Shown here: positions 8,567 to 47,263 of the stretch, piece after piece | How positions within the stretch are numbered: the stretch's first letter is position 1 | Layout: every line of letters begins with the position of its first letter | NCBI GenBank assembly: GCA_033439255.1 | Contig: CM065883.1 | Span: 2,852,001-2,916,000 of the forward strand | DNA from: Hericium rajendrae | Lineage: Eukaryota > Basidiomycota > Agaricomycetes > Russulales > Hericiaceae | Reading direction: 5' to 3' | Length of the DNA stretch: 64,000 bases | Notes under the pieces: generated by a model | Databases searched by the model: none | Told to the model about the DNA's origin: nothing | What the model saw: the letters and a program-made list of their open reading frames with translations, nothing else | Translations under genes and position numbers: made by a program

Positions 8567-9454
8567 TCAGACATGAGGGATTGGGGCACGGGGGTTGGAG
8601 TCGGCATTGAGGGGGCAGTCGCGGAAGCCATGGCCCTTCTGGCGGCAGCGGAAGCAACCACCCTCATGCCTGAGACACTCACGGTCAGGCTCCGAGAGTT
8701 TGGGCAGTGGGGCACCTGTAGCAGCAACTGTGCAGGATCGGCCAGTAGATGTGGACTGAGGGGAGCGAGTGCTCACCGGGGTGCACCCAGTTGTGGGGCG
8801 GGGACTCTGGAACCGGGTGCACATGAGGTAGGCAGCATTCCTGTCACGGGCCCTCGCCTTCCACTCATCCAGGGTGGTGGGCGTGGGGTAGCTGCACTGG
8901 CAATCATCCCGCAAGGCGCTGTTGAGGCCATGCAGGAACCAATCAATCAGGGCCACATCATTGTAGCCGGTGTGAGGAGCGAAGGACTCGAACTCGGTGA
9001 TGTAGTAGACTACCAGGCGCGTACCCATCTGGAGGGTCTGGATGGCATGGGAGGCATCCTTGGAGTCGTCAAGGGGGGAGAAGTCCAAATTGAAGCAAGT
9101 TCGAAGGGCAGCGAGGTTGGCGTAGCGAGGGACATGGGCTGGAGATGTGTTTGCAGCCACAAGATCGTCATCCTCAAGGATCTCCTCGACACGCTGGGTG
9201 GCCCACTGGCCAGCAATAGGGCCCTGGCAGAGGTCGAGGAAGAGGGAGATCTGGGTGGTATCATCTTTATACCGGGTAGAGTTGGCACGAAGGAATAAGC
9301 GAATACGCAACTGGAACTCCTTGGACTTGGAACGATCTCCCTCAAAGGGAGCAGGTCTGATGCCGATCTCGGGGTTGGACATGTCGTCGGGCAGCTGAAC
9401 AGGGGGAGCTGGGGTGATGATCGGTTTGACGTTGACGGTGGATGTGGATGTCAT
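8567..9454 (-). CDS. Retrotransposon gag-like reading frame (fossil)
   Basis: A 295-codon frame resembling the Gag of Ty3/gypsy-type elements. It has a Gag capsid-like region (PFEGDRSKSKEFQLRIRLF ... FLDLCQGPIAGQWA ... FNLDF ... YYITEFESFAPHTGYNDVALIDWFLHGLN) and a C-terminal CCHC knuckle CFRCRQKGHGFRDC near residue 270. No protease, reverse transcriptase or integrase follows, so it is a gag remnant or a captured gag gene. Its ATG (9452-9454) is supplied by the end of element A, and the bases just upstream read as a splice acceptor, TTTTTCAG. Confidence 0.7.
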   Translation of the reverse strand: MTSTSTVNVKPIITPAPPVQLPDDMSNPEIGIRPAPFEGDRSKSKEFQLRIRLFLRANSTRYKDDTTQISLFLDLCQGPIAGQWATQRVEEILEDDDLVAANTSPAHVPRYANLAALRTCFNLDFSPLDDSKDASHAIQTLQMGTRLVVYYITEFESFAPHTGYNDVALIDWFLHGLNSALRDDCQCSYPTPTTLDEWKARARDRNAAYLMCTRFQSPRPTTGCTPVSTRSPQSTSTGRSCTVAATGAPLPKLSEPDRECLRHEGGCFRCRQKGHGFRDCPLNADSNPRAPIPHV

Positions 9455-9794
9455 CTGAAAAATTAAAAATCTATATAGCTCAGTACTAAAGTATGTGTCC
9501 TAGCATAGTGCTATGGGATCTATATAGCCACTCTTGCATCTATGTAGTGCTATGCACATTATGATAGCCTTCATAGCAGTAGGCAGAAGGTATATAGATC
9601 TATGTACCTGTAAGCCATTGCTATCAGAGCTATGTACCATCATAGCCTTGCTATGGATTCTATAAGCCCTATGTCAGGTATGGTAGACTCCATAATTACA
9701 AGTCAAAATTTTCAATATTATTAGATGAGGGGCTTCTGACTTCAAAAACATTTTATTGCTATAAGTAACATAGTTACAAAAACTAATTGTAACT

Positions 9795-10640
9795 ATAGAT
9801 ACTACTCAGGCAGCATCGTGGACAGCCCGCGGTCGTTCAGTGCCTTACGCGGAAAGCAAGCGGCAGCGCAGACAGCGCGAATGGGGCGCGGAGCGTGTGG
9901 ATGCAGCGCAGAGGGAGAGAGATGGCGCATAGGGCGGGACGACTGCCCGGATGGTGCGGAAGCGACGTGGAGGGCGGGGAGGTGGCGCGAAAGGCGGGAA
10001 GGAGGCGCAGAGGGCGCGGAGGGTGCGGAGGTGGCAGGGATGGCATGGAGGTGGTGGGGATGGCACGAAGGCGGCGCGGATGGCATTGACACGGCGCGGA
10101 GGGCCGGGAGATGAAGAAGAGGGTGCAGAGGCGGGCAGATGGCAGGGAGGCGTGCGGAGGGCGTGGAGGCGGGGCTGAGGGCGTCGATGCGGTGCTGAGG
10201 GCGTCGACGTGGTGTTGAGGGCGTCGACGTGGTGTTGAGGGCGTCGACGTGGTGTTGAGGGCGTCGACGCGACGCTGAGGTGACGGACTCAGTGCTGAGG
10301 TGGCGGACTCGGTGCTGAGGTGGCGGACTCGGTGCTGAGGTGGCGGACGTGGCACAGAGTGCGGCGGGCCGTGCAGAGGGCACAAGCGGCGTGGAGGCCT
10401 GCTCGCGCCGTTGCACTCGTGCTTGTGCTGTCACGACCACGCACGGTCGACCACGCGCAGTCTGGGGCATGCAGGCGCACGGTCGGGGGGCAATTGGGCG
10501 GTTGGGCACAGGCGCGCGTAGCTGGGGCCAAATGCGGGCCCATGCACACGCTGTCGCGGGCGTACACGCTCCTGCACATGCTGTTGAGGTCGTGTGCGTG
10601 CAGTCGGAAGTGCGGGAAGCGGGCGCAGGGGCGCAGTACG
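9795..10640. repeat. GC-rich array in element A with 24-bp and 20-bp tandem units
   Basis: Purine-biased GC-rich tract. At 10196-10275 the unit GGGCGTCGACGTGGTGTTGA repeats about every 24 bases, and at 10280-10345 GGCGGACTCGGTGCTGAGGT repeats every 20. The long open frames here (e.g. minus 9802-10962) are Pro/Ser/His-biased and arise from composition. The equivalent positions in B, D and E hold comparable arrays of different sequence. Confidence 0.7.
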
Positions 10641-10649
10641 AGATATCGA

Positions 10650-10673
10650 GTCTCGTTGCCGTGGCAACGAGAC
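10650..10673. other. Hairpin 1 of element A
   Basis: Perfect inverted repeat: arms GTCTCGTTGCC / GGCAACGAGAC around a 2-nt centre. The same hairpin occurs at 21273-21300 and 45889-45920. Confidence 0.85.
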
Positions 10674-10970
10674 CCGACTGTCGTTGTGTCATTGTCGTTG
10701 TCCTTTGGGGATGTTGAGATGGGGTGGCGGGTGTTGAGACAGGGTAGGGGCTGTCACGGCGCCGTGGAGGGCGTGCACGGGCAGGCGCAGACAGGCGTGG
10801 GCTGTTGAAGCCCATTGAGGTGGCGCCCGGGACATCGGAGAGGATGTCGCGTGTTGTGACGCGACAGCGATGCGAGAGATGCGGCGAGGGTGCAAGGAGG
10901 GCCGCGAGGACACGAGGAGGGCGACAAAGTCGAGGAAGAGGGCGATGGGGAGCCGGAGGCACGAAAGAAT

Positions 10971-11003
10971 GAGAGTATCGCTCGTTATCTGAGCGATACT
11001 CTC
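10971..11003. other. Hairpin 2 of element A
   Basis: Perfect 13-nt arms GAGAGTATCGCTC / GAGCGATACTCTC around a 7-nt loop. The core TATCGCTC is shared with 21404-21438, 24221-24254 and 45769-45803. On the minus strand the hairpin sits about 30 nt after an ACCTTGAG/GGTAAGT donor-like site (about 11040-11050). Confidence 0.85.
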
Positions 11004-11369
11004 GGAATTAGTACGATAACACAGATATATATGAATTTTACTTACCTTGAGCCCCCTAAGCCTCTGACTGATCCTGCCGACCTTCGAAGTGACGAGAAAC
11101 GAAGAGAGCGACGAGGAGGACGGGATGCAAAGTGAGCTGAGTGAGGATAAAGACAAGTCGAACGACGCGCCTTAGTGCTTGAGCGATCGAAAGCACGAGT
11201 TCAGCGTTTCGAACTTCATTAATCGAATCAAATCGTTTTAATTCAGAAAAAAAGACAGTATGTATAATTTGCTCATACCATTCGATCATATGAGCTACTT
11301 GTCTAACTAACATATTGTACGCTACTGAGCAGCAAACACAAGTTAATAAAATCTATCACTTAGCCTCTG

Positions 11370-11460
11370 GCGCGGCACTCGGCAGCGCCCGGCAGCCACG
11401 ATTCTCGGCTTCGCCCAGGAATCGTATATAAGGCTCGCGCGACGCGCGTTGCCTCTTGCT
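11370..11460 (+). promoter_or_regulatory. TATA-type promoter of element A
   Basis: The string AGCCTCTGGCGCGGCACTCGGCAGCGCCCGGCAGCC is followed by TATATAAGG at about 11425 and a CT-rich start region (GCCTCTTGCTCTCTAACCCC). Homologous blocks occur in B (about 21830-21910), E (minus, 23740-23860) and D (minus, 41280-41420). Conservation of the TATA box and the pyrimidine-rich start across four copies supports a real promoter. Confidence 0.55.
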
Positions 11461-11940
11461 CTCTAACCCCACCATCTCTCCCACGTCGGCGTCGTCATCG
11501 TCATCGTCGTCGTCGTCGTCGTTGCTTGCTCGTCATTGCTTGCTCATCATTGCTTGCTCGTCGTTGTTCTTTCTTTGCTCGTTGTTACTTCTTTGCTCAT
11601 TGTTCTTTCTTTGCTTATTGTTCCTTTGCTCATTATCTTTTAGGTGTGTTGACTTTAATTTAATGTTCTATGTTCTTTACTAATGTTCTCTCTAGTTATG
11701 TCTCTGTTATCTTCTCAAGTTAAGGTGAGCTAATCTTTTATTGTCTCTGTCTTTGTTATGTAATATCTTTAATTAATAGATTCTCGCTTTTCAGATTAAA
11801 GTAAGTGTCATTAATTTGTTATCTTTTTGAGTTGTAAGTATATATTGTTGTAGTAAATTATAAACTTTATTATTAGATTATAAAGTTATAATATGAGATT
11901 TAAAAAAAAAATTAAAATTGAATAATTTACTTGGGAAGAG
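11461..11940 (+). other. Leader region with conserved micro-exon (element A)
   Basis: CT-rich leader with a TCG/TTGCTC repeat. After a TTAATAG acceptor-like site comes the small conserved segment ATTCTCGCTTTTCAGATTAAAG followed by GTAAGT (about 11780-11805). B, D and E keep the core TTTTCGCTTTT between AG and GTAAG. I infer a non-coding spliced leader. No protein frame is evident. Confidence 0.45.
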
Positions 11941-12812
11941 GGCCAATGCTGTGCATGGCAAAACGATTCCTTTTTATTATTATTAATGAAGGTATATAAA
12001 TTATCTCACACATAGATCAGACACACCATGCCCTGCCTCTGATGTCTTATGCATGGGCTCAGATGCTACACATGCTAGCATATGTATGGCTGATAAATGG
12101 TCATAGCTATGCACAAGCACATCAGTTAGCACACCTGTTAGCACACCTGTGTAGGCATGTCATGTACCTGTACCTCATGCTTTATACTTGGCATGTAGCA
12201 TTGTGCTGGGGCCAGTGCCTCGTGCATGTCTGCTACACCTCATGCCAGCCCACTGTGCTTCATGTTCACTGGCCACACCCTATACTGATTCACCACATCT
12301 CGATGTACCTTGTGGATGGGCCAGTGACAGCTCAGAGATGGCTACAGCTGAATGTGAGCATGTCAGTCAGCACAACCATATACACACATTGTGTGTTGCC
12401 ATGTGCAGGTGTGTCACTTGCCTGTACCTTTGTTGAGATTGGGGCAAATGCCCATTATCAAAGCACACTAAGTGTGATTTTCATCTTATCTCGTTCCTTA
12501 CCTTTAGATTAGATGTTTCAGGCCTGGAGCCCAGATCGATTATGTACACTACTGTACAGTTGCTTTCAGCCCCTCGTGCTATTGATGTAGGCACAAGTTT
12601 GCAGGATGTTTACCTCAGCGAATTCTTCTATCACTGAGGTATGTGATCTATGCTTCTTTCATTGATTATTAATGTACTTACTCCATGGGCAGTCCTGACT
12701 GCTCGGTATCATTCTAGGTACATAATCAATGCAGTGAATTCTTCTATCACTGAGTCCTGACTGCTCAGTATCATTTTAGATACCTCCCATACCCTGGTTC
12801 TTCTAAGAGGTT
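11941..12812. other. Non-coding flank of the Copia fossil
   Basis: Starts near the inferred breakpoint of element A. Between 12040 and 12450 it is rich in words such as TAGCACACCTGT and GCATGTC. At 12628-12775 the string GAATTCTTCTATCACTGAG and its follower CAGTCCTGACTGCTC are duplicated. This may be the leader of the Copia element; I could not identify an LTR. Confidence 0.35.
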
Positions 12813-15800
12813 ATGGGCCCTGGTCCTGAATTAATGTTGCTCAACAACTCATTCAACCTTTGCACTGTTCCGAAGCTCACAGCCAATGGCTCGAACTGGG
12901 TGACATACAAAACCTGCATTGTGATCATGATCGGAGTAAAAGGTTTGATGCATCATCTGAGAGGCACCGCCAAGGAACCAAAGGAACCATTGACATCACT
13001 CGATAAAGACAAAAAGGATGTCAATCCAATGACCAAGCAACTGGATGATTACAAAGAAAAGTGGAACAAGTGGCTCCAACAGGAATACACCATCAAACAA
13101 CAGATCTTCTTGACAATCATCAAATCACTCCTTTCATGCATGCAAGATCTTGATCGTGCACACAAAGTATGGTCTGCCATACTTGTAATGAATACAAGGG
13201 CAAGACCAAAATGGTCCAAATCGATCTCCGATGATGGCTCCAGGAGACACGTTGTCAACCCAGCGGCGACGTCCATGAGCATTTCAATTTGTTGCTTTGC
13301 ATGAAGGAAGAATTAGCAGGCATGGGGACTAAACTAATTGACACCAATTTCACTGCCATAATTTTATCCTTGCTCCTCACTGACTACAATCCTGTCCTCT
13401 CAGCAATGCTCTTAGCTGCTTGTATCACTGGAAAGACCATCCTGCCAATGACCATCATTTCTCATGTCGATGAGAAATTTGATCATCATGCGATCAAGGC
13501 CCAGCTCAACAAGGTTGATACAGTGCTCATCGTGGGATCCGATCCAAAGAAGTGTGGCACTAGCCAAGGCATGTGTGGCAACAGCAATAGCAGTAGCTCT
13601 GGCACGAAGAACAATGTCAAGTGCTCGAACTGCAGACACCATTTTCACAGCACCACTAATTGCTGGCAGAAAGGAGGCAGAAAGAAGGGGCAGGGATCTG
13701 ATAGGAAGGGCAAGAGCAGCAGGAAAGACAAGGACAGCAATGGGAAAGGTACAGTAAATGTGGCTGCCACCCTCGAGACCCATTTTGCTTTCTCAGCACT
13801 AGCTGCCACGGTTCCTGACTCAGCGCTGATGTAATGCATCAACATCAGCACCAGTCACCACTACTCCTCTTTCTGATCAGAATTCTTGAACTTCCATTAG
13901 ATTGCACCTAAACTGATCATCACTGCTGACAAGCATGTCTTCTTCATGACAGGCTGCGGTGATGTAATTATTACCTTCCCAAATGGTGACACAATCACCA
14001 GGATCACCCTGAAGGATGTACTGTACCATTTCGATCATAGGCTCATGGGGGTTGAGCTGTGACTGAGAACTTAGTAGGCTCATTTGGTCTCTTAGGCTCA
14101 CAACGGGCTGTGACCCATGACCAAAATAAAATAGGCTCACTCATCCCTTATGTTTTTGAGGAGTTGAGGCTCATATGCTTGGAGACATCTCATATTATCT
14201 TGTTGTGAATGCTCAGACAGCTTGAACATGTAATGAGATGATTTTAGCCCTCCACAAAGGTCTTGCATTACACCAAGAAAATTTTGATTTTAATTTAATT
14301 ATAATCAAAATTTGGTCACAGATATCGATGAGGCTCATCAGACCTTGTGACTAGTGACAAAGTGGTGATTAGGCATAGCTCAAGGGTCCCTGTGACCTGT
14401 GACATAAGCTTACGATCAAAATGGTACAGTACTGTACACGCTGAGCATAGTGTTTACCCTGATTTCAATCAGCTGCATTAATGCATTGGGCTTTTTGACA
14501 ATGTTCTGTGATGGACATTGTCAGATTTGCAGTCCTGCTAGACAAACCATCACATGCATCCTGTGTGACAACAACCTCTACAAATTTACTAGTCCTGCAG
14601 ATGCACTCGCACATGTGCTAGCTTCCATTGCGGCCATCGATGACCATAGTGCCAATCCCATGCTGTCCACTGCTGACCTTCATCACCAGCTAGGCCATAT
14701 GTCAATTGATGCTGCAAAGTCTCTAATCAAGCATGGCATGATCACTGGCATTAATCTCGATGATCTGATCCAGGAGATGGAACTCTGCTGAGCTTGTGTC
14801 CAAGCAAAAATCCAGCATGTGCCATTTCCAAAAGAATGCACGTGATCTCGATCGACAATCTATGGCAAACTTGTATCATCTGATCTATTCGGCCCTGCTC
14901 ACATTGCATCCCTTGTCAGACATTGGTATGCTATGACATTATTGGACGATACAACCTATGAGGTCCTCATCTCATTCCTCCAGCACAAGAGCGAAGCTTT
15001 TGACAAATATGTGAACTACGAGAAATTTGTCCAAGTTCATTGGAGGGTCTCTGTAATACAGACTTTCTGTTCTGACCAAGGTGGCAAGTACACCAGCCTC
15101 ACATTCGAAGATCATCTCATGAAGCAAGGCACACATCATGAAAAGATGGTCCATGACTCGTCTTCACAGAATGGTGCCGCAGAACTTTTTTTTCTGCATG
15201 AGTGTCACATGCATCCTTGCAATGCTATTGGCTGTGGGACTCCCTAAATTCCTCTGGGCCACTGTGATGCAACATGCCATGTAGCTTTGGAACTGCACCA
15301 GAGGAAAGATCACTGGCAACCAAACCCAATATGAATGGGCATTCAGCAAGAAATCAGACCTGTTGGACCTGCATGAATGGGAATGCCCCATCTGGGTCTG
15401 CATTGAGAACTGACCGAAGCTTGACGAATGTGCTGACAAAGGGAAGTTCGTTAGCTACAGCAGCAAGAGCAAAGGAATATTAGTATATTGGCCCTGCAAG
15501 CACTCGATCACTGTCGAGTGCAATGTCATTTGAGATGACATTGCACTGCTGCCGATGACTGACATGCCCATGGATGATTGGCTAATTGAACTTTTTGATG
15601 GTCGTGCTCCAGAGGAGTGGGTTGCCATTGACGGGGACAATGCTGCACTGAGAGATACTCCCACGACAGACCATACTGTCCCAGAGGCCGACCAACTGCC
15701 TCCAGACCACATGTCACCGACCGTCGCAGAGCAAGCCCTGCACGATGTGCCAGCTGACACTCTGCCTGATGTGATGAATGTGCTTGCAACTTGCCAGAGT

Positions 15801-15953
15801 GAGCCCTCACCTACGATAGGACATGCCGCCGCACTACAGACCCCATTGCCAGTGCATACGCACAGTGAACCACCAACTGTGCTAGATGCATCTCAAGCAC
15901 AGTGCATATTGTACCTTCCTGCTACGTCTGTTTACTTCAAGCTAGTACTATGA
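12813..15953 (+). mobile_element. Copia-type LTR retrotransposon fossil (gag to integrase)
   Basis: Parts recognised in order: a Copia Gag (from ATG 12813, with SNWVTYKTCIVIMIGVKGLMHHL), a CCHC knuckle (CSNCRHHFHSTTNCW), a GAG-pre-integrase motif (DLHHQLGHMSIDAAKSLI), and integrase core pieces (SDLFGPA, FCSDQGGKY, SSQNGAAE). Reverse transcriptase, RNase H and LTRs are not recognised. It is clearly broken, with several interruptions, and looks old. It sits inside the span of element A. Confidence 0.75.
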
Positions 15954-16835
15954 TAGGACATATAGATCAACACTGGACTATGTGAAATTTCAGTTTTTCA
16001 GATGATATACACTACACCAACTCATATATGCACTCTTGGCTCACATTTTTTGACCTATGTATACCTTTGTTGATCTACTTACACATGTATCAACCCATGG
16101 GCATCATAGCAAACATATGTATACTTCTACTACCTCATACATTTCCTGTTAGCCTGTGCACCTTCTATTGATTTGTATGCATTGCTGCTAGCACCAAAGG
16201 CAGAATTTAATTTCTATATTTGGATTTTTTTCTGACTTTTACAAAAAATAACATAACTCATACTAGTTTTTTTAATAGAGCTTATATCTCTTCAATGTAT
16301 AATCTAGTCAGTATTTTTCTATTTTACACGCATTAAATACTATTAAAATTGAATTCTCACTTTCAAATCATATTTTGTATACTGGCAGAAATTAGTAACC
16401 AAATATGGCAACTACTTTCTGATAAAATTGCCTGTTGACTAACATGAAGGTCCAGAGTAACAAAAAACTCATACAAATGCATGAGAGCATCAATTGTGCA
16501 AACATCACTTTAAGCATATAAAAAAACACTATTTAATCTAATCTAATCATAAGTAGTTCAGCTCCTACCTCTGATAACTCTACATTTTCTGCTATGTCAT
16601 ATATCTTAGCACCTTATTTTATATATAATCTTGTGTGTTATATAGTACACACTTGTCATATCTTATTCTACTCAGCTCGATATATGATATACACTATTAT
16701 ATATACTTATACTATAGATACTTGTAATATCTACAATTATAGTAGTAGTCTAGTTGTATGTCTAATCAAACAAGATTCAAGATTGAATATATGATCAATG
16801 TCAAACATTGTATTGTTGAACAAAGCTAATGGCCA
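15954..16835. other. AT-rich stretch without a gene
   Basis: AT-rich sequence with many ATACACAT/ATATAT words (densest at 16580-16790) and no credible coding frame. TTTTTCAGATG occurs near 15993-16003, the same acceptor-like word found at the ends of elements A to E, but no CTATAGCT block accompanies it. Confidence 0.35.
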
Positions 16836-17654
16836 ATCACGTGATCAATAGCAGACCTTGTTCGGCTGCACAAGGTCTGGTGGCTGTGCTTAGCTTATGT
16901 CAGCAGTAGTTGATGTTGCGCTCTCTGCTTTCTCTTCTTTTCTTCAGATAGCTTTGAAGTCAGTGTGATACTACCAGTAGTGCACACTGACTACAAGGCT
17001 TGGACACGCCCAGTTCCCATCTACAGCGAGTTGCGGCTGAGGTGTCCAATGATGGTGTAGGGCCATCACCAACTTTCTGGATCTCTTCTGATGATGTGGC
17101 ATAGAGATTGCACCATGGCCCTCTCAATACCACATGAATCAGAATGAGTGAAAGCTTGTTGGAATCAAATTTAGAATAGCTTTAGAATAGTGCCACAAAC
17201 AGCAAGATAGCATGGCAAAATGCTGATCTATTGAACTATATGTCCGTGATGATGTGGCAGACTAATTGCTTTATAGCTCTGCTAATACTGCATCAATCAT
17301 GATGTATGAGGGCTTATTGAAATTGGATTTACAGTAGCTTTCTAACAGTATAGTTTACAACATTATAGCACCATTGGTTGTTAAGATAGGAGACAATACT
17401 GTTTTGCTGATGTGGCACATAAATCGAGAAATATCTCTTCTTGGAGTGATCCGATTTTCATATTCTAAATTGGGTTGGAAAGGTGTAATCAAAGGTATTT
17501 GAACACAGTTTACCGTTTGTCGATTGATTGCTTCGTTGCAGAGCTATAAAGCAATCACTGTATACAGTGTATTGGCTCTCTAGGCGACTTATGCTTATGT
17601 AAGCGGGCGCTAAGACCTTGTTCGGCCGCACAAGGTCTTGTAGGATCACATGAC
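16836..17654. mobile_element. MITE-like element with hairpin ends
   Basis: Both ends carry a hairpin. The left, 16853-16878, has arms AGACCTTGT / ACAAGGTCT; the right, 17612-17639, has arms AAGACCTTGT / ACAAGGTCTT; both share a TCGGC(T/C)GC centre. Outside them are inverted words CACGTGATC (left) and GATCACATG (right). The 0.73-kb interior holds two degenerate copies of a module with GATGATGTGGCA... and GAA(T/A)..AGCTTT. No coding capacity, so a non-autonomous DNA element is the best reading. Confidence 0.55.
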
Positions 17655-17807
17655 CGAGTCTCAGGACCCATTGCTACCGATAAATTGCATTGTTTTGCTC
17701 ATTTTATCAATAAACAGTATGTACATTTGTTTGCTGTGTATCATTTTAGTGGCTGTATCTTTCTATGAGCAGTAAATTGTGTTGGAGACCAGCTTTCTGA
17801 TATATTA

Positions 17808-18345
17808 GGATGCATTTGAGAACAAGTGAATCGGCTGAGTACTGATTAAGTTAGCTGGAGTTCAAGCATTCTAGGGGGAAAATGCAGAAACAATTCGCAT
17901 TCTGCGAGTTTTGCACCGATCCTGACGCATGAGGTACCGTCAGAAAGCTATCAATAAGTAGATTCTGATGCACTTTAGAACGAGTAAATCGGTTGGGAAT
18001 TGACCTAGTTAGCTAGGGTGCAAGCATTTTAAAAGAGGAAAAAAAGAAACACTTTGCATTCTGCGAGTTCTTAACTGATTTGGACGCATAAAGTATGGTA
18101 GCAAAGCTATGAGTGAGTAGATTTAGACGCATTTGAGAACGAGTAAATCGGTGGAGAATGGACTGAGTTAGCTCAAGTTCAAGTGTTATAGAGGGGAAAT
18201 GTAGAAATTCATTGCACTCTGTGACTTCTGCACAGATCAGGATGCAAAAAATACTGTCAGAAAGCCATAAATGAGCAGATTCAGATGCATTTGAGAACAG
18301 GTGAATTGGTTGAGAACTGATCAAGTTACATTAAATCAACAAAGT
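17808..18345. repeat. Tandem repeat, period about 160 bp, ~3.4 copies
   Basis: Successive units start at about 17808, 17969, 18127 and 18283 with GA(T/C)GCA(T/C)TTGAGAACNNGT, each followed by AA(A/T)TCGGT.GAG.A..GA and TTGCATTCTGCGAGTT.. . Identity between units is moderate, so the array is not recent. It continues directly into the tRNA-like stretch on the minus strand. Confidence 0.7.
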
Positions 18346-18348
18346 TTG

Positions 18349-18422
18349 GCCAGAGCTGGAGTTGAACCTACAAACTCATCAGATCGATGATCTTGCAATT
18401 ACATAAGCCAACTGCCAAATGG
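18349..18422 (-). ncRNA. tRNA-like stretch (possible SINE head)
   Basis: On the minus strand GGCAGTTGGCTTATGTAA resembles a pol III A box, and GGTTCAACTCC about 45 nt downstream matches a B box. The first bases (GGC) and the GCTCTGGCC end do not form a full acceptor stem, and the anticodon arm is poor, so a working tRNA is unlikely. Downstream in transcript sense lies the ~160-bp tandem repeat, as in a tRNA-headed SINE or a tRNA relic. Low confidence. Confidence 0.35.
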
Positions 18423-18489
18423 GGATGGTCATCGTTTGCATGTCGTTTTCACTATGAAAAGGCAGTATAGAGTAAACGATTCTAAGGAA

Positions 18490-18875
18490 TCGTAATTTTG
18501 AAATAATGTTTTGATATGATCTTTCAGTAAGAGTAATGAATATAAGATTTGCTCTATAGCTAGATAAAAATTTTGATAGTTCTGATAGATTTTATTACTT
18601 TGATAGATGTGTTAAGTTTACATATTGAGTATAACATAAGTAGGTAACATAGCTCTGATACATTTAATAGCTAGGCACCCTATAGTAGCTTCATAGTTAG
18701 CTATGATAGCTATAATAGCAGTTCATAGTATCCCCTTCAGCTCTATAGCATCTCATAGCACTCCATAGCTCTCCTTTTGAGCTATGAGAGCTATGTAGTA
18801 AAGGGAGGTGCTATGGGCCTATGACTTCTATATAAGATATGTAGAACTATGTAGGACCTGCATATTTTTCTGATG
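18490..18875 (+). repeat. Right end of element A: subterminal CTATAGCT block
   Basis: Dense CTATGATAGCTATAATAGC / CATAGCT words from 18600 to 18860, closing with GCATATTTTTCTGATG. It matches in order and composition the right end of element B (22400-22707). Confidence 0.6.
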
Positions 18876-20047: not shown

Positions 20048-20394
20048 AATTCTACATAGCCCAGTGTTAAGTTATGTGTCCTATCAGAGTGCTATGAGGT
20101 CTATGTAACTATCCTTCTCAACTATGTAGGGCTATGAGGCCTATCATAACTTCCATAGTAGAAGATAGATGCTATGTAGTGCTATATACTCCTGAGATGC
20201 AGCTATGATTGCTATATAAACTTGTTAGCTTGCTATGATCCCTATGGCCCCTACAATAAGTGAGCTAGACTCCATAACCATCCAGTCAAAAGTCTTATAT
20301 TGCACACTCAAAAACATGCCAATGAAAATTATATATTCAAAGACTTCTACTAAGGGACATTGTATCTACAACACAGAAGTAAATGTAGTAGCAA

Positions 20395-21265: not shown

Positions 21266-21272
21266 TCTGGCT

Positions 21273-21300
21273 GAGTCTCGTTGCCGTAGCAACGAGACTC
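21273..21300. other. Hairpin 1 of element B
   Basis: Perfect 12-nt arms GAGTCTCGTTGC / GCAACGAGACTC around CGTA. Confidence 0.85.
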
Positions 21301-21403
21301 GACGACGGCGTCGACGACGGCGTTGTCGAGGGGAGGAGATGCGGCGGGCTTGTGGGTGTAGGCGAGGGTTCGCGAAGGCGAGCGGGGGTCCGCGAGACGA
21401 CAC

Positions 21404-21438
21404 ACGAGTATCGCTCGTTGCCAACGAGCGATACTCGT
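21404..21438. other. Hairpin 2 of element B
   Basis: Perfect 17-nt arms ACGAGTATCGCTCGTTG / CAACGAGCGATACTCGT around one base. On the minus strand it follows GGTAAGT (21477-21483) and the branch-like word GTGCTAATC; an AG of the arm could serve as acceptor. Confidence 0.85.
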
Positions 21439-21539
21439 TTGATTAGCACGAAAAGACAAAACAAAACATGTAATTACTTACCTAGACCCCCCGAAAGTCC
21501 TGCTAACCGTCCTGACCAGCGACCGACGTCGTATTTTGC

Positions 21540-24254: not shown

Positions 24255-24351
24255 TTTTTCTTTTCCTTTCGACCCCTCCGCACCCCTTCACGCCACGCCT
24301 GGTCGCCGCGTGCAGTTCGTACACCCTGCCCCTGACTCGAACGCACCCCGG

Positions 24352-34283: not shown

Positions 34284-34483
34284 CGGGACAAGACTGCCGG
34301 GCGCGAAGATGGCTCGGAGTTGAAGTGCCCTCCCGGGGCGTAGATGCCTTTTATAGGCTCGCTGCAGCACACCCGCCCAGGGCGCCGTCGCACAATCGGC
34401 TTCACGCATGCCCGCGCCCGAATCCCTCGTGGGGCTCCAGATTAGACTACGGAGAGTCTAAATTTTCAGTTAGGGGGAGAATG

Positions 34484-35500: not shown

Positions 35501-36640
35501 CCGGCACCCCTGCAATTGGCCCCAATGACGTGCACGCCCAACGCGCACCCTTCTGCGCACGTCCACGCCTGCCCGCAGGCACTGTCGCATCGCACGCATG
35601 CACGTACACACGACCTCGCCATCTGCGTGCCATCAAGGTGTGCGCACGGGCCATGTCATCATGCGTGGCATTGCTGGCATGCCCGCACAATGCCCTGCAC
35701 TCTGCACAACCCCCGTCGATGCATTGACACCAGTGCACAGCCCTGCACGGGCACGACAATGCGTGCAGGGCTGTGTATGGCTCCGCCAACCTCCATTGCA
35801 CACGCAACACCCCATGCCCGTGCCCCACGCCCCAACATCCCACCTGTGCGCACATGGACAACAGCCCCACGCCGGCTCAATGCTCTGCATGGCTGCTGCG
35901 CCTCGCGCGCAGGCTTGCCGCATTGTGCACGGCCCCGCGGCAATGCAATGACCCCTCCGCCCACCTCGCGCCTCTGGCACGCAGGCCTGCTGCGTCGCGC
36001 ATGGCCTCCGCGCCCTATGTCGGCCTGCTGCGCCTCGCGCAGGGGCCCAGTGCCTTGCGCATGCCCGTCACATCTCGCGCACACCCCAATGCATCGCGCA
36101 CGCACTCGGCTCCCAGCGCTGTCTCCTGCACGCCGCCTGTGCCTCAAGCACACCTGCACACTGGTGCGCCGGTCTCTCGCGCACCGCAAACCTTGCCCAC
36201 ACCCCCGCACCTCGCGTACAGCAGCACGGCGCACTCCGCACGGGCCTCCGTGCCGAGCACACCCCCCACACATCGCGCATTGACCGGCGGCAGCCCAGTG
36301 TCACATGCACAGGCACCCGCGCCTCGCATGTGCCTCACTGCCTCGCGCACGGACCCTATGACTCCGCATGAGCCCACGGTAATCCAGCGCCTCGTGCACA
36401 GACCCCGGACCTGGCCTTTCATGCGCGCAGGCCCGGCCTATTGCGTGGGTCCCACCAGCATGCCCACGGACCCCGCCAGCACGCACACTCCTGCGCACAG
36501 GCCCGGGCTTTGCATGCGACCATCGCGCCTCGCACGCATAAGTGCCGCATCACGCTCGTGCGTGTGTGCCCCTTGTCGCGCCACGCTCGTGTGCGTGCCG
36601 GGTCTGCCTGTGCATGCTACATGTGATGTAGTATACTGGA
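35501..36640. repeat. GC-rich array of element E
   Basis: CA/GC-rich words (GCCCGCGCATG, CGCGCACGG, GCCTCGCGCA) with no strict period. Frames on both strands are composition-driven. Confidence 0.55.
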
Positions 36641-36951
36641 TTGTATTTGTAGTAATATGTAATATAATTAATTTTGATCTGAAATCTTTCGTACCTACCT
36701 GACTTGACATAGTACTAATAGTAATCATAGCTCACCTAACTAAGTATGATAATGCTATATATCTCACATTGCTAACTATGGGAGCTATAGGAGCTATGAT
36801 AGCATTATATAGTTGGCACTACCAGCTATGGAAGCTATGGAAGGTCTCATAGCTCTACATAGCTGGATAAGCAAACTACATAGCTCTGATAGCTCAGTGA
36901 TAGCACCCATAATATAACCTGCAGCTATATATAATTCAGTTTTCTCAGATG
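36641..36951 (-). repeat. Subterminal CTATAGCT block and end of element E
   Basis: AGCTATGG / ATAGCTCTACATAGC words; the outer edge reads TTTTCTCAGATG, an acceptor-like sequence facing right. Confidence 0.6.
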
Positions 36952-39087: not shown

Positions 39088-40552
39088 ATGGACAATTTTT
39101 GTCATCTTACCCTCACTGCTGGACAATATCCACCGACATCGAATGACCTCCAGCACACTCTTGATCAACATAGAATCAGTGAGTACATTGCCTGCTTTTT
39201 CTGCATTTTCGCTCAAGAATAAATGAAATGTAAGAATGATGATGACGGGGGTGGTGCTCATTTTCTTCCCAACATCCCTACGACAATCTCCATCCCAGCC
39301 AATAATACCCCCATAGCACATCTCTTGAAGGTCTCACTCCCAATAATGTCCTTTGGCATCCTCCTTGTAAAAGCAAAGACATGGTTCAACAAAGATTGCC
39401 CACACAAAGTAACAGCAGAGATACTTACTTGCGCATTGCCCAGCCTTGCTCAGATAGAGCAGTTAGAGGCAACATTTGAATCACAGACTCGTCTTGGAGC
39501 TCGGTCTATCGTAAACAACCGGGTCAATAATGGTAGTGATCGCCTACCGCTTTGGATTCTGACCTATTGGAAAACCATAGAAGCACTTGTCCAGGGGCAG
39601 AAAACGTGGATGGACTCTGACGACTGGTTGGCCAGAGAATCTCGGACGCCCGAAACAACAGCATTATTTGACAGGATATGCACCTCCTTCGAATCTACTG
39701 CCTGGAATAGTCAGCTTCGTTGCTTTGGGATCCCAACAAGTATTCTTGAGCTATCCCACCTTCTGAACACGGTCTCCTTGTCTGACAACCACCTTGACAT
39801 GATGATGGCTTCAATAGGCCAATGTACCCATCAGGATGTAACAGTCAGCTCACGAGTTATCATTGGTACCACAGGTTTCTCAAGAGTGCTGAACGACATC
39901 GCGAAGCAGTGGCATAATATGGACAAGCCATCAAGTCAGCAACAGATTGTCTTGCAAAATGAATCATTAGTGAAGGACTCAGGTCGGCGTGTAATTTATT
40001 ACCCTGGATTTGTGCATTCGAACCACTGGATTGCGGTGCGAGTTGATTTTGAGGCAAGAACTATCGCATATGGTGAGTTCAAATTAGATATATGCATTGT
40101 CCTTGTTTAAATGGTACGCTTTAGGTGACTCACTCGTTTATCAATCACATCTGCTGCCTGGAATATTTGACGGCCTTCAATCCTGGTTACGTGCGAACTT
40201 TGACAGCCCATTCGAAGTCCTTGGCGATGTTGTTGAGCATGGATCGCAGAGGGATATATTCTCCTGTGGGATATGTACAGCAAATACCATCGCCCATGCA
40301 GTGCTTCATGATGAGTTATGGATGAGGGCACGAAAGGGTCTGGAAAGAGGACATTGGTTTGTTACATTGCTTTGCCATTGCAGGACAATCGTACGTACCT
40401 CCGATTAACTAAGCATCCCAATTGGTCTGAAGCGTCCTTTGCAGACACAAACAGCAAAAAACCCTCTCCTAGATAGTGATGATGATAATCAGTCATCAGA
40501 TGCTGAAGAGATTCAGGCAGACATACCACCTTCAGAATACAGCAACATCTGA
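39088..40552 (+). CDS. Ulp1-type cysteine protease (C48-like) of the large transposon
   Basis: Possible start ATG 39088 with a donor at 39179; the main exon opens near 39223. Introns at 40073-40124 and 40391-40444. The N-terminal two thirds (TWFNKDCPHKVTAEILTCAL, LPLWILTYWKTIEALVQGQK, RCFGIPTSILELSHLLNTVS) has no named domain. The C-terminal part has the catalytic order of Ulp1/SUMO-protease-like enzymes: VHSNHWIAVRVDF (His), YGDSL (Asp), then GSQRDIFSCGIC (Gln and the nucleophile Cys). An acidic tail DSDDDNQSSDAEE follows. The last codons (S-N-I-stop) run into the end of element D, so the natural C-terminus may be lost. Such proteases accompany transposases in several fungal DNA elements. 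Role not known. Confidence 0.7.
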
Positions 40553-40559
40553 AAAATGT

Positions 40560-41250
40560 ACCAATGCTATGTTGTCCTATATTGCTTACATAGATCTCAT
40601 AGTTCCATAGCAATCCCCTTTTATACATAGGGCCCCTATAGCTGAAAGGCAGTCTATGGCAAGCTATATAATCAAATAGGATTGCTATGTCTAGCTATGA
40701 TAGCTATGATAGCTACCAGAGCATAAGGCATAGCTATGGTAGCTATAAAGACTATGTCAGTTATGCTATGTATGACCATTATCATATCATATCTAGCTTA
40801 ATAGGATTGCTATCTACTCTATATCATTTCTGACTGATATGTCACTTAGAAATACTATAAATATATTTCAGATATCTGAGCTCTTTTATAGGCTTAATAC
40901 TTTTATTACATAAATCAATAAAACATCGAAATTTGATAGCATTATATTTATTCTCATGATACTGATACAAACACTACAAAAGTAAGACTACAAGAATCCT
41001 ATGCTAATATAGAAACTATAAGAAAAAGCTATGCAACATTACCAAATATGAAGAAAAAGCAAATATAATCTACAAGAATGATACATCATTAGTATAAAGT
41101 AACAACAAACATAAGAAAGAACTAGAGACTTACCCAAAGATCATAAAAGCGAAAATGAAGTCTATAAAGTTAAGACATTAGTAGTATCAACAACAAAGAA
41201 GATTATAGACTTACCAACAACATATAAATGTTGAAGTAGTATAGCAGAGA
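40560..41250 (-). repeat. Left subterminal block and leader of element D
   Basis: CTATAGCT/ATGATAGC words at 40560-40830, then AT-rich leader with ACTTACC (minus-strand GGTAAGT) sites near 41130 and 41215, and the micro-exon AAGCGAAAATGAAG (minus TTCATTTTCGCTT) between them. No gene. Confidence 0.55.
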
Positions 41251-41254
41251 GAAA

Positions 41255-41407
41255 AGAGAAAGACGACAGAATGTCGAAGGGAGATGGTAGTGGTTGAGAG
41301 GAAAGAGAGGTCGCGCGTCGCGCGCATCTTATATCGCCAGCGCAGTGCGGAGTCCGAAATGTGGCTGCCGGGTGTTGCCGGGTGCCGCGCCGGAGGCTAG
41401 TGATTTA
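41255..41407 (-). promoter_or_regulatory. Promoter of element D
   Basis: Minus strand: AGCCTCCGGCGCGGCACC, CCGGCAGCC, then CGATATAAG at about 41328-41336 and the CT-rich start region, as in A, B and E. Confidence 0.5.
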
Positions 41408-41456
41408 CAGTGCTTTGCATATGAAACTGCAGTCGACGCGCCGATATTTTTGTTTG
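41408..41456 (+). repeat. Left TIR of Tc1/mariner element 2
   Basis: 49 bp, perfect inverse of 45351-45399; preceded by TA. Confidence 0.95.
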
Positions 41457-41545
41457 TAGTAGCCAAATAGTCACAACATGTCACAAGTCTGTCACCCAAA
41501 CATCGATGCCAGTCGCAGCGGTTCGCGTCGTGCACCACAATAAGC

Positions 41546-42631
41546 ATGCCTCCTCACTTGTCTCAGGAAATGCGAGCAAACATCGTACGCTGGCACCATG
41601 AGCAGGACAAGCCTGTCTCCGAAATTGCTATTCTTGCAGCATGCTCTGAGCGTACTGTATATGATATCTTGCGCTTGAATCGTGACTACGGAGTCATTCA
41701 GAACCCATTTTCACGTCCTCGGCGACGCGATCGGATCCTTGACATTGGCGACATAAACTACATTTCCTCTCTTATTTCAGCAAACCCATCCCTCTATCTC
41801 GATGAACTCCAGACTCGGCTATCCGATACTCGACTGGTCGAGGTCTCCATTGCCACCATTTCGCGCACCATTCGAAATATGGCATTGACTCATAAGCAAG
41901 TCTCAAAATCAGCCATGGAGCGGAATGAGCTCCTTCGCGCCACCTGGCAGGCAGAATATGGGCATATACCTGCAGAGAGATTTGTTTGGATTGACGAGTC
42001 AAGTGTCGACGACACGACAAACCAGCGGCAAGATGGATGGGCTGCACTTGGCCGCGCTTGTGTTCGCCGAGCTACCTTCATACGCGGGCAACGCTATTCC
42101 GTTCTTCCTGCATTGACCCATGAGGGGCTCATTGCGCTTGATATTTTTGAGGGCTCTGTGACAAAAGAAAAATTTATTCAGTTTGTCCAAACAGAGTTGG
42201 TACGTACTCTGCTCGCTGATGCGATTGGCATGATTGATTGACGATTCATATAGGCTCCTAATCTAGGCCCGTATCCTGGGCCACGAAGTGTAGTTGTAAT
42301 GGATAATTGTGCAATCCACCATGACGAGGAAGTGCGTCGCATTGTTGAAGATGAATGCAGTAAGTTCATCTTCATATCTTCTTTCTTTCCGAGGCTGACT
42401 TTCTTTTCTTCCATTGTTATAGATGCGAAACTGATTTATTTACCACCCTACTCTCCCGATTTTAATCCGATTGAACAAGCTTTTCATTCGGTCAAAGCAT
42501 GGCTTCGGCGCCACGAGTCTCAAGCTATCCGACCTGAAGTTAGACCATGGCTGATCGAGCAGGCGATAGCATCAGTATCAGGCGAGAGTGCTGAGGGGTG
42601 GATCACAAACTGCGGATATTCATTTGTCTAA
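41546..42631 (+). CDS. Tc1/mariner transposase (element 2)
   Basis: ATG 41546, 90 bases inside the left TIR region. Two introns, 42200-42253 (GTACGT...ATAG) and 42360-42422 (GTAAGT...TATAG). The N-terminal helix-turn-helix pair shows VSEIAILAACSERTVYDIL and SIATISRTIRNM. The catalytic triad is VWIDESSVDDT, VVMDNCAIHHDEE and LPPYSPDFNPIEQAF (D, D, E). The C-terminus is ...EGWITNCGYSFV. The frame is intact after removing the introns, about 322 residues, the usual size. It is related to the 4669-5879 gene (shared LPALTHEGLIALDIFEGS / LPALSLNGILAVDIVEGS), yet the two elements are clearly different lineages. Probably functional. Confidence 0.93.
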
Positions 42632-42711
42632 ATTTTATCTAAAGAAGTATTGAGAGATGGATTGACAAGAGGCAAAATCTAAATCTATAGTGGATATGTA
42701 ATCTATGAAAA

Positions 42712-44773
42712 TCAGTCGAAACGACGGCGTTTATCAGAAAAGAAAGCCCGTTTCTCCTCCAAGCGAGCAGACCAAGCTCGACAAAACACCTGCAGCTTCA
42801 CGACACGTCCCTCCGAAGCACCTGTCAATTCGCACAGACGCGCGATTGGCACATCAGGTATGACGTCAGGCATGAAGTCAACGCTCGCAAATGCATCTGC
42901 GCATCCCGTCAGATCAATACCCTTGATGTCATTGAAGTCCGCGAGACAGGCCTGTAGTTCGGACCCCTTCTTCGGAAGAGGTGAAGGTGGGATCACTGAA
43001 GTTCGTGGCCGAGTCGGAGTGCGAGGTGGCTGGGGTGACGGGGACCGGGTACGCTTGCCGTTGGTGTTCAGGTTGCTGAGAATGGCGGCCATGAGCAGTT
43101 GAGATGTGTCGCTCGACTGCATGCTTCCTGAAATAGAAGCTGGACCAGGCCCGGAGCGTCCGCGAGACCGCGTGAGTGAGAGACGACCGTCACGTATGCC
43201 ATCGAACTCCAATGTGTTCGGAGGGTCATGCTTTGTGGCGTCATGCGCAGCCTACAAGTTCATGAAGTCAGACAGTCGAAAGATCATCATCAAATTGTAA
43301 AGACTTACAATCGCAGCAGCCCAGAATTTGAGCTTGCGCATATTTAACCCCACATGCTCCGCATTTGCCGTAATATAGCAGTATCCGAGTTCGCCATGTT
43401 CACCTGCATGCTGTTGGCAGGTCCATTTTTCCTTGAGCTCGAGGATGATGGGACCATGCAACTGTGCCTCGTTGCTGAACGACTCGACCCTCGGTACCTG
43501 AGAAACACTATCAGCAACACACAGAGAAGTAGATTAAAATTCGCTCACCCGGGTTCCATAGACCAACTCCTGTGATCCAGCGACATCATCGGCAACTATA
43601 TTAGGCAACTGAATGCACACAAAGATATATTAGGAACATACACGTATTGACATAAATGTAGCAACTTACAGCTTTACGGATGCGAAACCCATCCATGTTA
43701 TCAGTATCGAACTCGATGGAGACAGCGCACGTTCTTCGGTTCTTCTGCATGAGAGTAGCAACGGCGAGCGTGAAGTCTCGATCATTATCAATCGTCAATG
43801 CACCTGCTTTGCCGCCGCTGTCAAGGGTGTGAGACACTGAGTGATCGCTCGAAGAGGAAAGCTTCTACGTACTTTGATCCAGTCCACCAGAGCTTGAACT
43901 CCGGTCCCGAATGGACACCGGCACTGAACTGCTTGTGAAGCTCATGTACGCGAAGGAAAGCCTTGATAAACGCAGATCGCGTCATCCCGTCCATCTTGAT
44001 ATACTCGAACTTTGTTGTCGTTATCAGCTTCTTCTTTGGCGCGGTCTTCGTAGACCGAGCAGGTGGTAATTTGTCAGGAGGCGAGAAGGAGTGGGTGACA
44101 TAGACGAGGTGACCAGCTGTGTCAATTGCTATCGAGACGATGTCAAAATTGTTGACACAAAAAAGATATAACATGCATTGTACTTACGAGCATCATTTGG
44201 AAGCGGCGCATGTGCTTGTGCGTTGCCTGTACCTTGTAAGCCAACTAAAAAAAAAAGGTGCAAAACCAGTCAGCACAATGGATTTCTTCAACGTAAACGA
44301 AACATAGCCTACCAAATTGTTGATTGGCATTGGCCACCGCTTGGACTCGAGCATGCTCCGGTTCCGGAGCAGCAGTTGGTGCCGCATTGCCTTGAGGTGG
44401 CTGCGCTATGGCCGGAGCTACGTGAATGCCTGCATTGGCAGCTGCTCGAATGGCATCCTGTATTTCAGCGGCAGTAGTATAGAATCGAGGGGGGTTTACA
44501 CCACCGTCTAGCATATAGCATCAAACACGTAGCAAGCAAGTAGAGACAACATGACAACTTACCGACCCAGGCAGGATTTCGCAGCCATCCTGCAGACGGC
44601 AGTCCTGCAATTGGCGCAGGAGGCGGCGCAGGAGGTGGCGCAGGCGGCGCAGGAGGCAGCGCGATCGGCGCTGGAGCACCAATCGGCGCGGAAGCACCAT
44701 TCTGCTGAGTGGTGCCAGCCCCGCCGGAGCTGCGAGCTGAGCGGGAGGGGATGCGGATGGTGAACGGAGCCAT
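42712..44773 (-). CDS. 551-aa cargo protein of Tc1/mariner element 2
   Basis: Start ATG at 44773 (MAPFTIRIPSRSARSSGG). Eight exons: 44773-44563, 44507-44313, 44244-44188, 44128-43873, 43817-43670, 43608-43549, 43497-43309, 43251-42712. All introns are GT...AG, 49-68 nt, and the exons total 1656 nt (552 codons with the stop). Order: Ala/Pro-rich N-terminus, a mixed fold (KFEYIKMDGMTRSAFIKAFL ... KAGALTIDNDRDFTLAVATL ... SIEFDTDNMDGFRI), then LELKEKWTCQQH...CYITANAEHVGLNMRKLKFWAAAI with Cys/His that may bind metal, a Ser/Pro linker (KRTRSPSPQPPRTPTRPRTS, nuclear-signal-like), and a C-terminal SAM-like helical end. Same plan as 6111-7982. It lies wholly within the TIRs, so it moves with the transposon. 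Function unknown. Confidence 0.8.
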
Positions 44774-45350
44774 TGTGAGATATGTGAGCTGAAGAGGGCG
44801 GGTTGGAGATCTAAATGAAGCTGTAGTTCTCCAACCAGTGCACTCACCTTTATAAACCAGTAAACGACCGAAACGGCCGACAGTTGCATAGAAACCTGGT
44901 ATACAATTTATCTCGCAAGCGTCGATCGTGTATTGCGAGCAACGGGACCCAGTTGGGACAAGAGAAAGCGGAACGATGCTTTTTGGGTGTAGAAAATTGA
45001 GCGCATCAGCGACAATATGCTGACACTCACGTTCTGGACCACCGGATGTGCAGTCACTGGCAACGCTCACGAACCAACGTCAGTTTCCGGGGTGAGATAG
45101 GTGCTGAAACTCGTTCGGCTATGGTCCAGGTTGCTCTAGGTCTGTTGAAACGGTATCACCATGGAAATTTGAGCAGTCTATGCATTACACATGCACTGGG
45201 AAGAGTCATGCCAGTGGCCTGAAGGATTCACGGCGGTAAGTTCAACAGCATCGAGGACGTTAACTCGAGACGACCACTCGACGCCGGGCTTGGTCAGTTG
45301 ACGCGGCGAATTAAGGTTTCGGAACCTGAAATGTCACGCTTTGGTCAGAA
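44774..45350. other. 5' flank of the cargo gene
   Basis: About 580 bases between the cargo ATG and the right TIR; presumed promoter. No gene recognised. Confidence 0.4.
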
Positions 45351-45399
45351 CAAACAAAAATATCGGCGCGTCGACTGCAGTTTCATATGCAAAGCACTG
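45351..45399 (-). repeat. Right TIR of Tc1/mariner element 2
   Basis: Perfect inverse of 41408-41456; followed by TA. Confidence 0.95.
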
Positions 45400-45527
45400 T
45401 AGATTTTACTAAGTTGGCTTGCTGGCGCGGAAAGATACAGTATGGTGGGTAAAAATGTAACTCATGTATCATGTAGATATAGATACTATACAACTTCCTC
45501 CTTTTTTTCGGATTTTATAAGATTTTA

Positions 45528-45733
45528 TTCTATTTGTTACACTCGAAACCGCCAGCCGCGCGAATCGAGTGCTGTGGTTGACCGTTGCACTCGACGCGCG
45601 ACTTGACGCGTCTCTTCTCTCCATCTCCCACCTCGTCTCCCCTCGTCTCCCCTCTTTCTCTATGCAAGCAACGCACGGCGTCGACCGACGGTTGGGAGGG
45701 TCAGCAGGAGGGCCGCGGGTCTCGAGGTAAGTA
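45528..45733 (+). promoter_or_regulatory. Rightward leader and splice donor of element D
   Basis: Pyrimidine-rich stretch (TCTCTTCTCTCCATCTCCC) then an ATG (MQATHGVD...) and CTCGAG|GTAAGT at about 45727. Element B has the equivalent on its minus strand (ATGCAAAATACG... and GGTAAGT). A transcript from here, spliced to the TTTTTCAG at 47253-47260, would join to the ATG of the transposase frame at 47261. Inference. Confidence 0.4.
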
Positions 45734-45768
45734 AATACTATAATCTTTTTTGTCTTCGTGCTAATCAA

Positions 45769-45803
45769 ACGAGTATCGCTCGTTGCAAACGAGCGATACT
45801 CGT
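45769..45803. other. Hairpin 2 of element D
   Basis: Perfect 16-nt arms ACGAGTATCGCTCGTT / AACGAGCGATACTCGT around GCA. Confidence 0.85.
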
Positions 45804-45888
45804 GTCGTTCCACTATCAACCCACGCGCCCCCACCACACGAGCCCACCCCACGCCGCTCCCTCGACAACGCCGTCGACGATGCCGACG

Positions 45889-45920
45889 TCGAGTCTCGTT
45901 GCCGTGGCAACGAGACTCGA
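45889..45920. other. Hairpin 1 of element D
   Basis: Perfect 15-nt arms TCGAGTCTCGTTGCC / GGCAACGAGACTCGA around GT. Confidence 0.85.
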
Positions 45921-45924
45921 CCAA

Positions 45925-46900
45925 TCGTCGTACGACGCGCGCTCATCCTCTACCACGCCCACGCAACACCCTCGCTGCAACGCCCCAAGCCGCGGCCATG
46001 CCCACATCCTCATGCGACCCCGGTCACGCCCGCACGCCCACGCACGCCGGCGATTGCGTGCGCACGGCCCCGCTCGCACGAGCGCGTCCACGTACGCCGG
46101 CGACTGCGTACGCACGGCGGCAGACGACCCCGCTAGCACGTATGCGCACACGCAACGCAGGCCGCTGCGCCCGGCCTTGCCAACGCGCGGATGGTCGCGG
46201 CCCCGCCCCGCTTTCTCGCGGCCTCGCCCTGCCTGCACACCGCCATGGACGCGCGCCAGCACAGCCGCGCACGCACACCGACGACCGCACCGGCCTACGC
46301 ACGCACGGCACGGGCAGCCGTGCACGGCCCCGCCAGCGGGCGGGCTGCCACATACGGCATCGCCCCGCCCCCGCACGGCCGCAGGCGACGGCGCCAGTGC
46401 GTATACGCACGCACAGCGAGGCAGCCGCGCACGGGTCCGCCAGCGCGTGGGCTGCCACGCACGGCCTGGCCTGCTAACGCGCGGCCACGCAGGCCCTCGA
46501 CTGCGCGCGCACGGCCGTGCCAGCACATGCACACACCCGCGCACGGCGTGACAACCGCGCCTGGCCGCGCTTGACCGTGCCAACGCACGCGCGCAACGAC
46601 GATGCAGGCAGCCACGTACGGCGGCATCTGCGCGCGCGACCACGCACGGTGCCGTCTCCGTGCGCGAGGCAAGACACGCCGGCGACGACGCGCGCACGAC
46701 TGCACCAGCGCACATGCGCGCGCGGGCCGCTGCGGGCAGCTCGTCTACGCGTGCGAGCCCCAGCACACCGGCCGCGGCGCGCGCACAGTCGCAGGCGGCC
46801 GTCTGTGCGCGCAGTGCCATGCATGCTGGCGACGGCGCGCGCATATTATTGACTACGCACGGCCGGCCGCGACGATGGGCGCCACGTTATCTGCGCATGT
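45925..46900. repeat. GC-rich array of element D
   Basis: GCGCACGGCC / CGCACGCC words, unordered; similar in style to the array of B. Long frames on both strands are not genes. Confidence 0.6.
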
Positions 46901-46979
46901 CTTTGTGCATGTGTATGAGGGTATTTAGTCAATTACTTACTTCTGTAATGTAGTAGACTTGTTTGCAATATATCCTATC

Positions 46980-47263
46980 TCTCAAATTTAAAAAATCTGA
47001 CTCGAAATCTTTGGTGCTTATCTGACTTAACATAGTCAATATAGTGATCATAGGAGCCATAGCTCCCCTTACTCAGTAGAATAGCTCTATGTATCTAATA
47101 CTGCTAGCTATAGAGGCTATGTATTTTATGCTGTCTACTATGGAGGCTATGGCAGCTCTCAGAGGTCTATATAGTTTGACAAGTGAAAGTCATAGGCTCT
47201 ATAGCTCACCTATAGAACCCATAGCTTGCCCTTTTGCTATATAAAAATTAGATTTTTCAGATG
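46980..47263 (+). repeat. Right subterminal block and edge of element D
   Basis: CTATAGCT / GAGGCTATG words between 47030 and 47250, then AAAAATTAGATTTTTCAG|ATG. Aligns with 36650-36951. Confidence 0.65.

Follow-up and report, generated by a model that had tools for sequence, protein, structure and literature searches.

According to PMC12730594, PlavakaB elements, which belong to the CMCT group and are found in Agaricomycotina, make target duplications of 2 or 3 bp and have the termini CATCA..TGATG; CA..TG termini fit the CMCT group in general. Here we describe a family of mobile cassettes of Hericium rajendrae, represented by elements A, B, D and E in a stretch of 64,000 nucleotides of contig CM065883.1 (the window; Table 1) and followed through the genome sequence (46.77 Mb in 19 contigs, with KDZ and Plavaka genes that point to a basidiomycete). 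The cassettes are one family of non-coding DNA transposons of ~2.7 kb. With a probability of roughly 0.7, we read them as non-autonomous cut-and-paste transposons of PlavakaB/CMCT type whose internal promoters would make spliced non-coding RNAs.

A cassette starts with CATC[T/A]GAAAAAT and ends with ATTTTTC[A/T]GATG, an inverted repeat that begins CATCTGAAAAAT and that, read outward, places CAG|ATG at the element edges. Both ends of A and both ends of E served as queries in searches of the genome, with at most 40 candidates scored for each. Among the matches listed, nearly all extend to the terminal base, while the outside DNA beside the same ends is unrelated from copy to copy. Pairing these listed matches by hand gave at least 61 elements (34 E and 27 A), with further ends unpaired; 44 of the 61 measure 2.6-3.0 kb, and two D copies 2.7-2.8 kb. 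All 43 pairs that were read at both ends show target duplications, 40 of 2 bp and three of 3 bp, where the chance of equal dinucleotides on both sides is 0.063 per insertion; the duplicated dinucleotides are mixed. These duplications, together with the differing flanks, identify the cassettes as DNA transposons that duplicate 2 bp, sometimes 3, on insertion and, with four subfamilies on a common plan, bear out the mobility first proposed from the window. Right ends 99% alike, which occur at two places in different flanks, imply recent movement. A relative of the insertion site of A (L069) is empty.

Genome-wide, 646 end matches were found at up to three mismatches, against none for a reversed control, although this number overcounts elements, as some matches sit inside a copia-like long terminal repeat (LTR) family. 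Searches with the ends of two more subfamilies, in each of which 40 candidates were scored, revealed additional copies. Within the window, CATCTGAAAAA (up to one mismatch) occurs 8 times where 1.4 are expected, a count reached by none of 100 shuffles, and CTATAGCT occurs 6 times where 1.4 are expected, a count reached by one of 100; three of the 8 CATCTGAAAAA sites (15994, 52096 and 60306) do not mark an end of any element treated here. Positions 15943-16104 match bases 1-162 of locus L114 at 91% identity, so that a cassette end recurs there together with its outside flank; a copia-like LTR family therefore seems to harbour a piece of cassette and to have multiplied it. Elsewhere, at G000:C2:4230282-4235864, an E-type cassette is separated by 207 bases from an A-type one, and both have TG duplications of their own.

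In their 2 or 3 bp duplications the cassettes resemble PlavakaB. As to the termini, TGATG stands at 18 of 21 A leader ends and CATCT/AGATG at nearly all other ends. PlavakaB, however, encodes the Plavaka transposase (PF18759) and the cassettes do not. With 123 of 166 candidates scored, the genome holds many Plavaka genes, with at least 132 PF18759 matches, of which many represent parts of a single gene; by eye, none of these falls inside any listed A or E pair. One Plavaka element, at C4:1685208-1695833, has CATCAGCAAAAC ends and a CA duplication. The Plavaka-bearing stretches read here (in C4, C12 and C9) have subterminal repeats other than those of the cassettes, and a comparison of cassette sequence with these Plavaka surroundings matched only the cassettes beside the C12 element, plus one match of 44 nt at C9 (E 0.004). 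Hence we place the cassettes beside PlavakaB, as its probable non-autonomous associates, rather than within it, because they have no Plavaka protein, their E termini (CATCT..AGATG) are one base off PlavakaB CATCA and the subterminal repeats of the Plavaka stretches read are different.

Membership in Tc1/mariner was rejected, as TA is duplicated in just three of the 43 pairs and the DDE_3 gene within E is that of another element, which is nested there and flanked by a TA duplication of its own. Membership in CACTA/EnSpm was rejected on the termini, which are CATCTG or CATCAG and not CAC/CACTA. Large non-autonomous CACTA/EnSpm derivatives (such as dSpm) have short inverted repeats, repetitive subterminal regions, a GC-rich part, no full coding capacity and short duplications. 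The cassettes resemble them in all these features and differ in their non-CACTA termini, their divergent promoter-like region and their conserved non-coding splicing units. Introners likewise have splice-site-like sequence at inverted ends, but the cassettes, at 2.7 kb and with internal promoter-like sequence, are unlike them. Our literature searches of an open-access collection found no description of such an element.

Of the internal features named in the preliminary description, the GC arrays, a pair of palindromes, GTAAGT sites in both orientations, TATATAAGG and TTTTCGCTTTT were confirmed. On the leader side, a CT-rich stretch follows TATATAAGG. In six of ten copies, GTAAGT introns 52-64 nt long were picked out by a script, mostly beside exons with TTTTCGCTTTT. 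The predicted spliced leaders, read by eye, share no open reading frame, and the RNAs would therefore be non-coding; four loci gave no Rfam match at E 0.5.

On the array side the donor conforms to GTRAGY in 22 of the 25 rows for E and 22 of the 23 for A, and its variation within subfamilies lies mostly at positions tolerated by splice donors. The underlying profiles started from copies having the exact donor, 10 of E and 15 of A. The rows come from 25 of 30 E loci that matched and from 27 of 30 A loci, of which two exact duplicates were dropped and two of the remaining 25 did not reach the donor. A branch-point-like CTAAT follows ~40 nt past the donor, and then a hairpin. Its stem, palindrome 2, covaries in 57 copies with 31 distinct arm pairs (300 of 341 cells paired, with two-sided changes), the arms having been picked by likeness to a paired consensus, which favours pairing.

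Past the branch point, CAG and TAG are scarce. In the bins 0-50, 50-100 and 100-200 nt we counted 2, 1 and 11 in E (28, 19 and 53 expected) and 9, 3 and 24 in A (30, 11 and 52 expected), using the 21 of 30 E loci and 24 of 30 A loci that fit the pattern of donor, branch point and hairpin. The first CAG/TAG lies at a median of 204 nt in E and 130 nt in A, compared with 43 and 50 nt in dinucleotide shuffles. The motif in reverse, GA[C/T], shows no depletion in this zone (0.90-1.89 of expectation), but along most of the array strand AG as such is also rarer than expected (0.21-0.84 of expectation, starting at 50 nt), and the depletion is therefore partly compositional. A zone poor in CAG/TAG normally ends at an acceptor. 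YAG columns are found at 179-221 nt in 13 of 22 A rows and at 303-391 nt in 15 of 21 E rows, with a second E column in 11 of 21 rows; these columns sit in the C-rich array, where such words are common, so the leftward acceptor is a candidate only. Taken together with the branch-point-like site and the CAG/TAG-poor zone, the YAG columns make it probable that the acceptor of the leftward intron lies inside the element.

The same signals stand out when subfamilies are compared. We aligned four copies of E, two each of A and D, and one of B, nine in all, a tenth (A_C7) having been dropped because it was missed by the anchor rule. Mean column conservation is 0.58 and the subfamilies are about 60% alike. 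The ten-base windows with the highest scores include the donor of the array side (0.97), both arms of palindrome 2 (0.94 and 0.97), the TATA block TATATAAGG (0.94) and GCGCGACGCGCG (0.92), as well as the subterminal TAGCTATGATAGC and the terminus (0.94 each). Internal signals are thus kept as strongly as the transposon ends, and for this reason transcription and splicing inside the gene-less element seem to matter to the element.

In the mechanism that we propose, a transposase supplied in trans, presumably of Plavaka type, would recognize the CATC[T/A]GAAAAAT ends and the ATAGCTATG subterminal repeats and would insert the cassettes with a 2 (sometimes 3) bp duplication. Two putative RNA polymerase II promoters, back to back inside the cassette, would make two spliced non-coding RNAs: a rightward one with short introns and TTTTCGCTTTT micro-exons, and a leftward one whose intron has a strong donor, branch point and hairpin and an acceptor probably inside the element. 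The RNA might benefit the element, perhaps by keeping it open to transposase or by countering silencing.

Apart from the limits on the acceptor given above, several observations weigh against this reading. The one-base departure of the E termini from PlavakaB is one. The TATA block, GCGCGACGCGCG and the micro-exon motifs are absent from the three Plavaka-bearing stretches read. We found no autonomous partner with cassette ends, most Plavaka loci lying outside those three stretches, and an apparent 14-nt match between the end of a C12 Plavaka element and the E leader end dissolved, since the repeats run past that point. The script finds no GTAAGT intron in three of the ten leader sides (A_C7, A_C9 and D_L117), and the leader side of E_C12 has only a candidate intron of 73 nt. 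Given the relatedness of the copies, row counts are not independent of each other, and the conserved signals could descend from an unseen relative with coding capacity.

The preliminary description had drawn a different conclusion from the promoter-like sequence and splice sites, namely that RNAs starting inside splice to TTTTTCAG at the edge and so give the flanking DNA a start codon. The promoter-like sequence and donors do face outward and the splice sites look functional, CAG|ATG is kept at 55 of 60 array-side ends, and in A many array ends show CTAAT a short way upstream of CAG. Of the three frames in each of 60 array-side flanks, however, that of the ATG is the longest in 20, which is the chance value, in a set of flanks that includes at least one pair with identical flank (L033 and L034). 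The neighbours at ATG 9454 and ATG 47261, named as fitting partners, are both halves of frames that the elements interrupt. When the flanks of A are joined, the gag-like frame stays open across the junction for ~60 codons on the far side and then stops; in the empty relative it is open further. The frame said to start at 47261 likewise continues open into the exon ending at 40545. On the leader side, CAG|ATG is present in 21 of 22 E pairs, with 22 of 22 at the other edge, but in only 3 of 21 A pairs; the other 18 read CTGATG and have lost the acceptor AG, which argues against a needed acceptor there. By eye, a third, outward GTAAGT after the micro-exons occurs in two of three A copies and in no E or B leader read. 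The terminal acceptor, moreover, is ~1.4-1.8 kb from the donor, whereas the branch-point-like site, the CAG/TAG-poor zone and the YAG columns point to an internal one. A requirement of transposition suffices to explain the conserved ends. We regard an outward exon donor as improbable; as a selected function, ATG donation is rejected on the frame test, the interrupted frames and the lost acceptors. Accidental outward splicing may occur at single copies.

A second alternative takes the promoter and introns from a coding parent with two divergent genes, of which the cassettes would be deletion derivatives whose RNA has no role. Non-coding derivatives of coding transposons are common, and the conservation of donor and promoter could have accrued in such a parent. 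A few cassette ends do lie ~1-6 kb from a Plavaka match (e.g. C18:28879, C9:1991220, C12:1487245, C12:1004045 and C12:976885, the last of which was read). A comparison by eye of the end positions of two further subfamilies with the Plavaka list gave a few such neighbours but no consistent Plavaka partner. We nevertheless consider this explanation rather unlikely, as the non-coding layout common to four diverged subfamilies, with most paired copies at 2.6-3.0 kb, would need the same deletion several times, and the long A and E pairs contain, by eye, no Plavaka match among the 123 of 166 candidates scored. The recurrence of this layout in four subfamilies is why we prefer a benefit for the element to passive inheritance from a coding parent.

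The signals might also be a captured promoter, of the host or of another transposon, carried neutrally. CACTA-group transposons can carry gene fragments (PMC1947982). Donor, TATA and hairpin are far more conserved across subfamilies than their surroundings, unlike neutral cargo, and we hold this origin to be highly improbable.

Non-autonomous DNA transposons are usually thought to need their ends only. We tentatively suggest, as a possibility somewhat short of even odds, that this gene-less transposon depends on its own RNA or its own transcription, and that selection kept, across its subfamilies and as firmly as the inverted ends needed by the transposase, its two divergent promoters, the TTTTCGCTTTT micro-exons and the signals of the leftward intron (5' splice site, branch point, covarying hairpin and a CAG/TAG-poor zone leading to an acceptor inside the element). 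If so, transcription or spliced non-coding RNA would take part in the survival of the element, for example in escape from silencing, and the copies would scatter bidirectional promoters through a fungal genome.

Within the window, inverted ends are confirmed at 9452, 18875, 22707 (with two mismatches), 36951, 40546 and 47263 (the letters D and E of the preliminary description may not match ours). No leader-side terminus was found for our D (23179-36951), and the left terminus of B is missing. The layout is also corrected in that 40546-47263 is one element with a nested insertion, and that the two ends of A are separated by another.

Table 1. Cassettes of the window, their signals, nested insertions and interrupted frames (positions of the window)
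Feature	Position	Strand	Remarks
Element A	9452..18875	+	Array end left, leader end right; GT duplication both sides
A core	9452-11929 plus about 18495-18875	+	Separated by nested insertion
Nested insertion in A	11930..18494		Boundaries approximate; copia-like by eye from translated frames
Element B	20048..22707	+	Plan as in other cassettes; left terminus missing
Copy D	23179..36951	-	Inverted; array end right (CTCAGATG); nested LTR element inside
LTR element nested in D	24352..35500		1019-bp LTRs 96.5% alike, TG..CA ends
Element E	40546..47263	-	Orientation opposite to that of A, with leader end on the left and array end on the right; AA duplication
E core	40546-41407 plus 45402-47263	-	Single element, interrupted by nested insertion
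Tc1/mariner-like DDE_3 element nested in E	41408..45399		TA duplication, CAGTGC ends
TATATAAGG	B 21883..21891; A 11425-11433	+	Rightward
Predicted micro-exon of B with TTTTCGCTTTT (22056-22066)	22047..22077	+	Between predicted introns of 60 and 64 nt
Second TTTTCGCTTTT of B	22148-22158	+	
Array-side splice donor GTAAGT of A	11040..11045	-	
Array-side splice donor GTAAGT of B	21476..21481	-	
Array-side splice donor GTAAGT of E	45727..45732	+	
Palindrome 1	B 21273..21300; E 45891-45918; A 10648-10675		
Palindrome 2	B 21406..21436; E 45771-45801; A starts 10973		Just past branch-point-like site of leftward intron
Gag-like frame interrupted by A	8570..9451	-	Open on far side, 18878 onward
Coding frame interrupted by E	39223..40545	+	Introns judged by eye; open again at 47266, after second AA

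Two tested frames of the insertion in A gave no Pfam match. At the truncated left edge of B, positions 19887-19944 and 19990-20047 form an identical direct repeat of 58 nt. Inside the LTR element nested in D, a GC-rich open frame of 1016 amino acids (25063-28113) starts within the repeat and has no Pfam match at E 0.001. The window contains further mobile sequences: fragments of a KDZ transposase (1246-1995) and of a DDE_3 transposase (5391-5876), and a Ty3-type LTR retrotransposon with a chromodomain (57709-64000), which has direct repeats of 209 nt, 98% alike and 6.1 kb apart, and is cut off at the window end. An inverted repeat of 53 nt, 92% complementary and with a 7-nt spacer, lies at 60967-61079.

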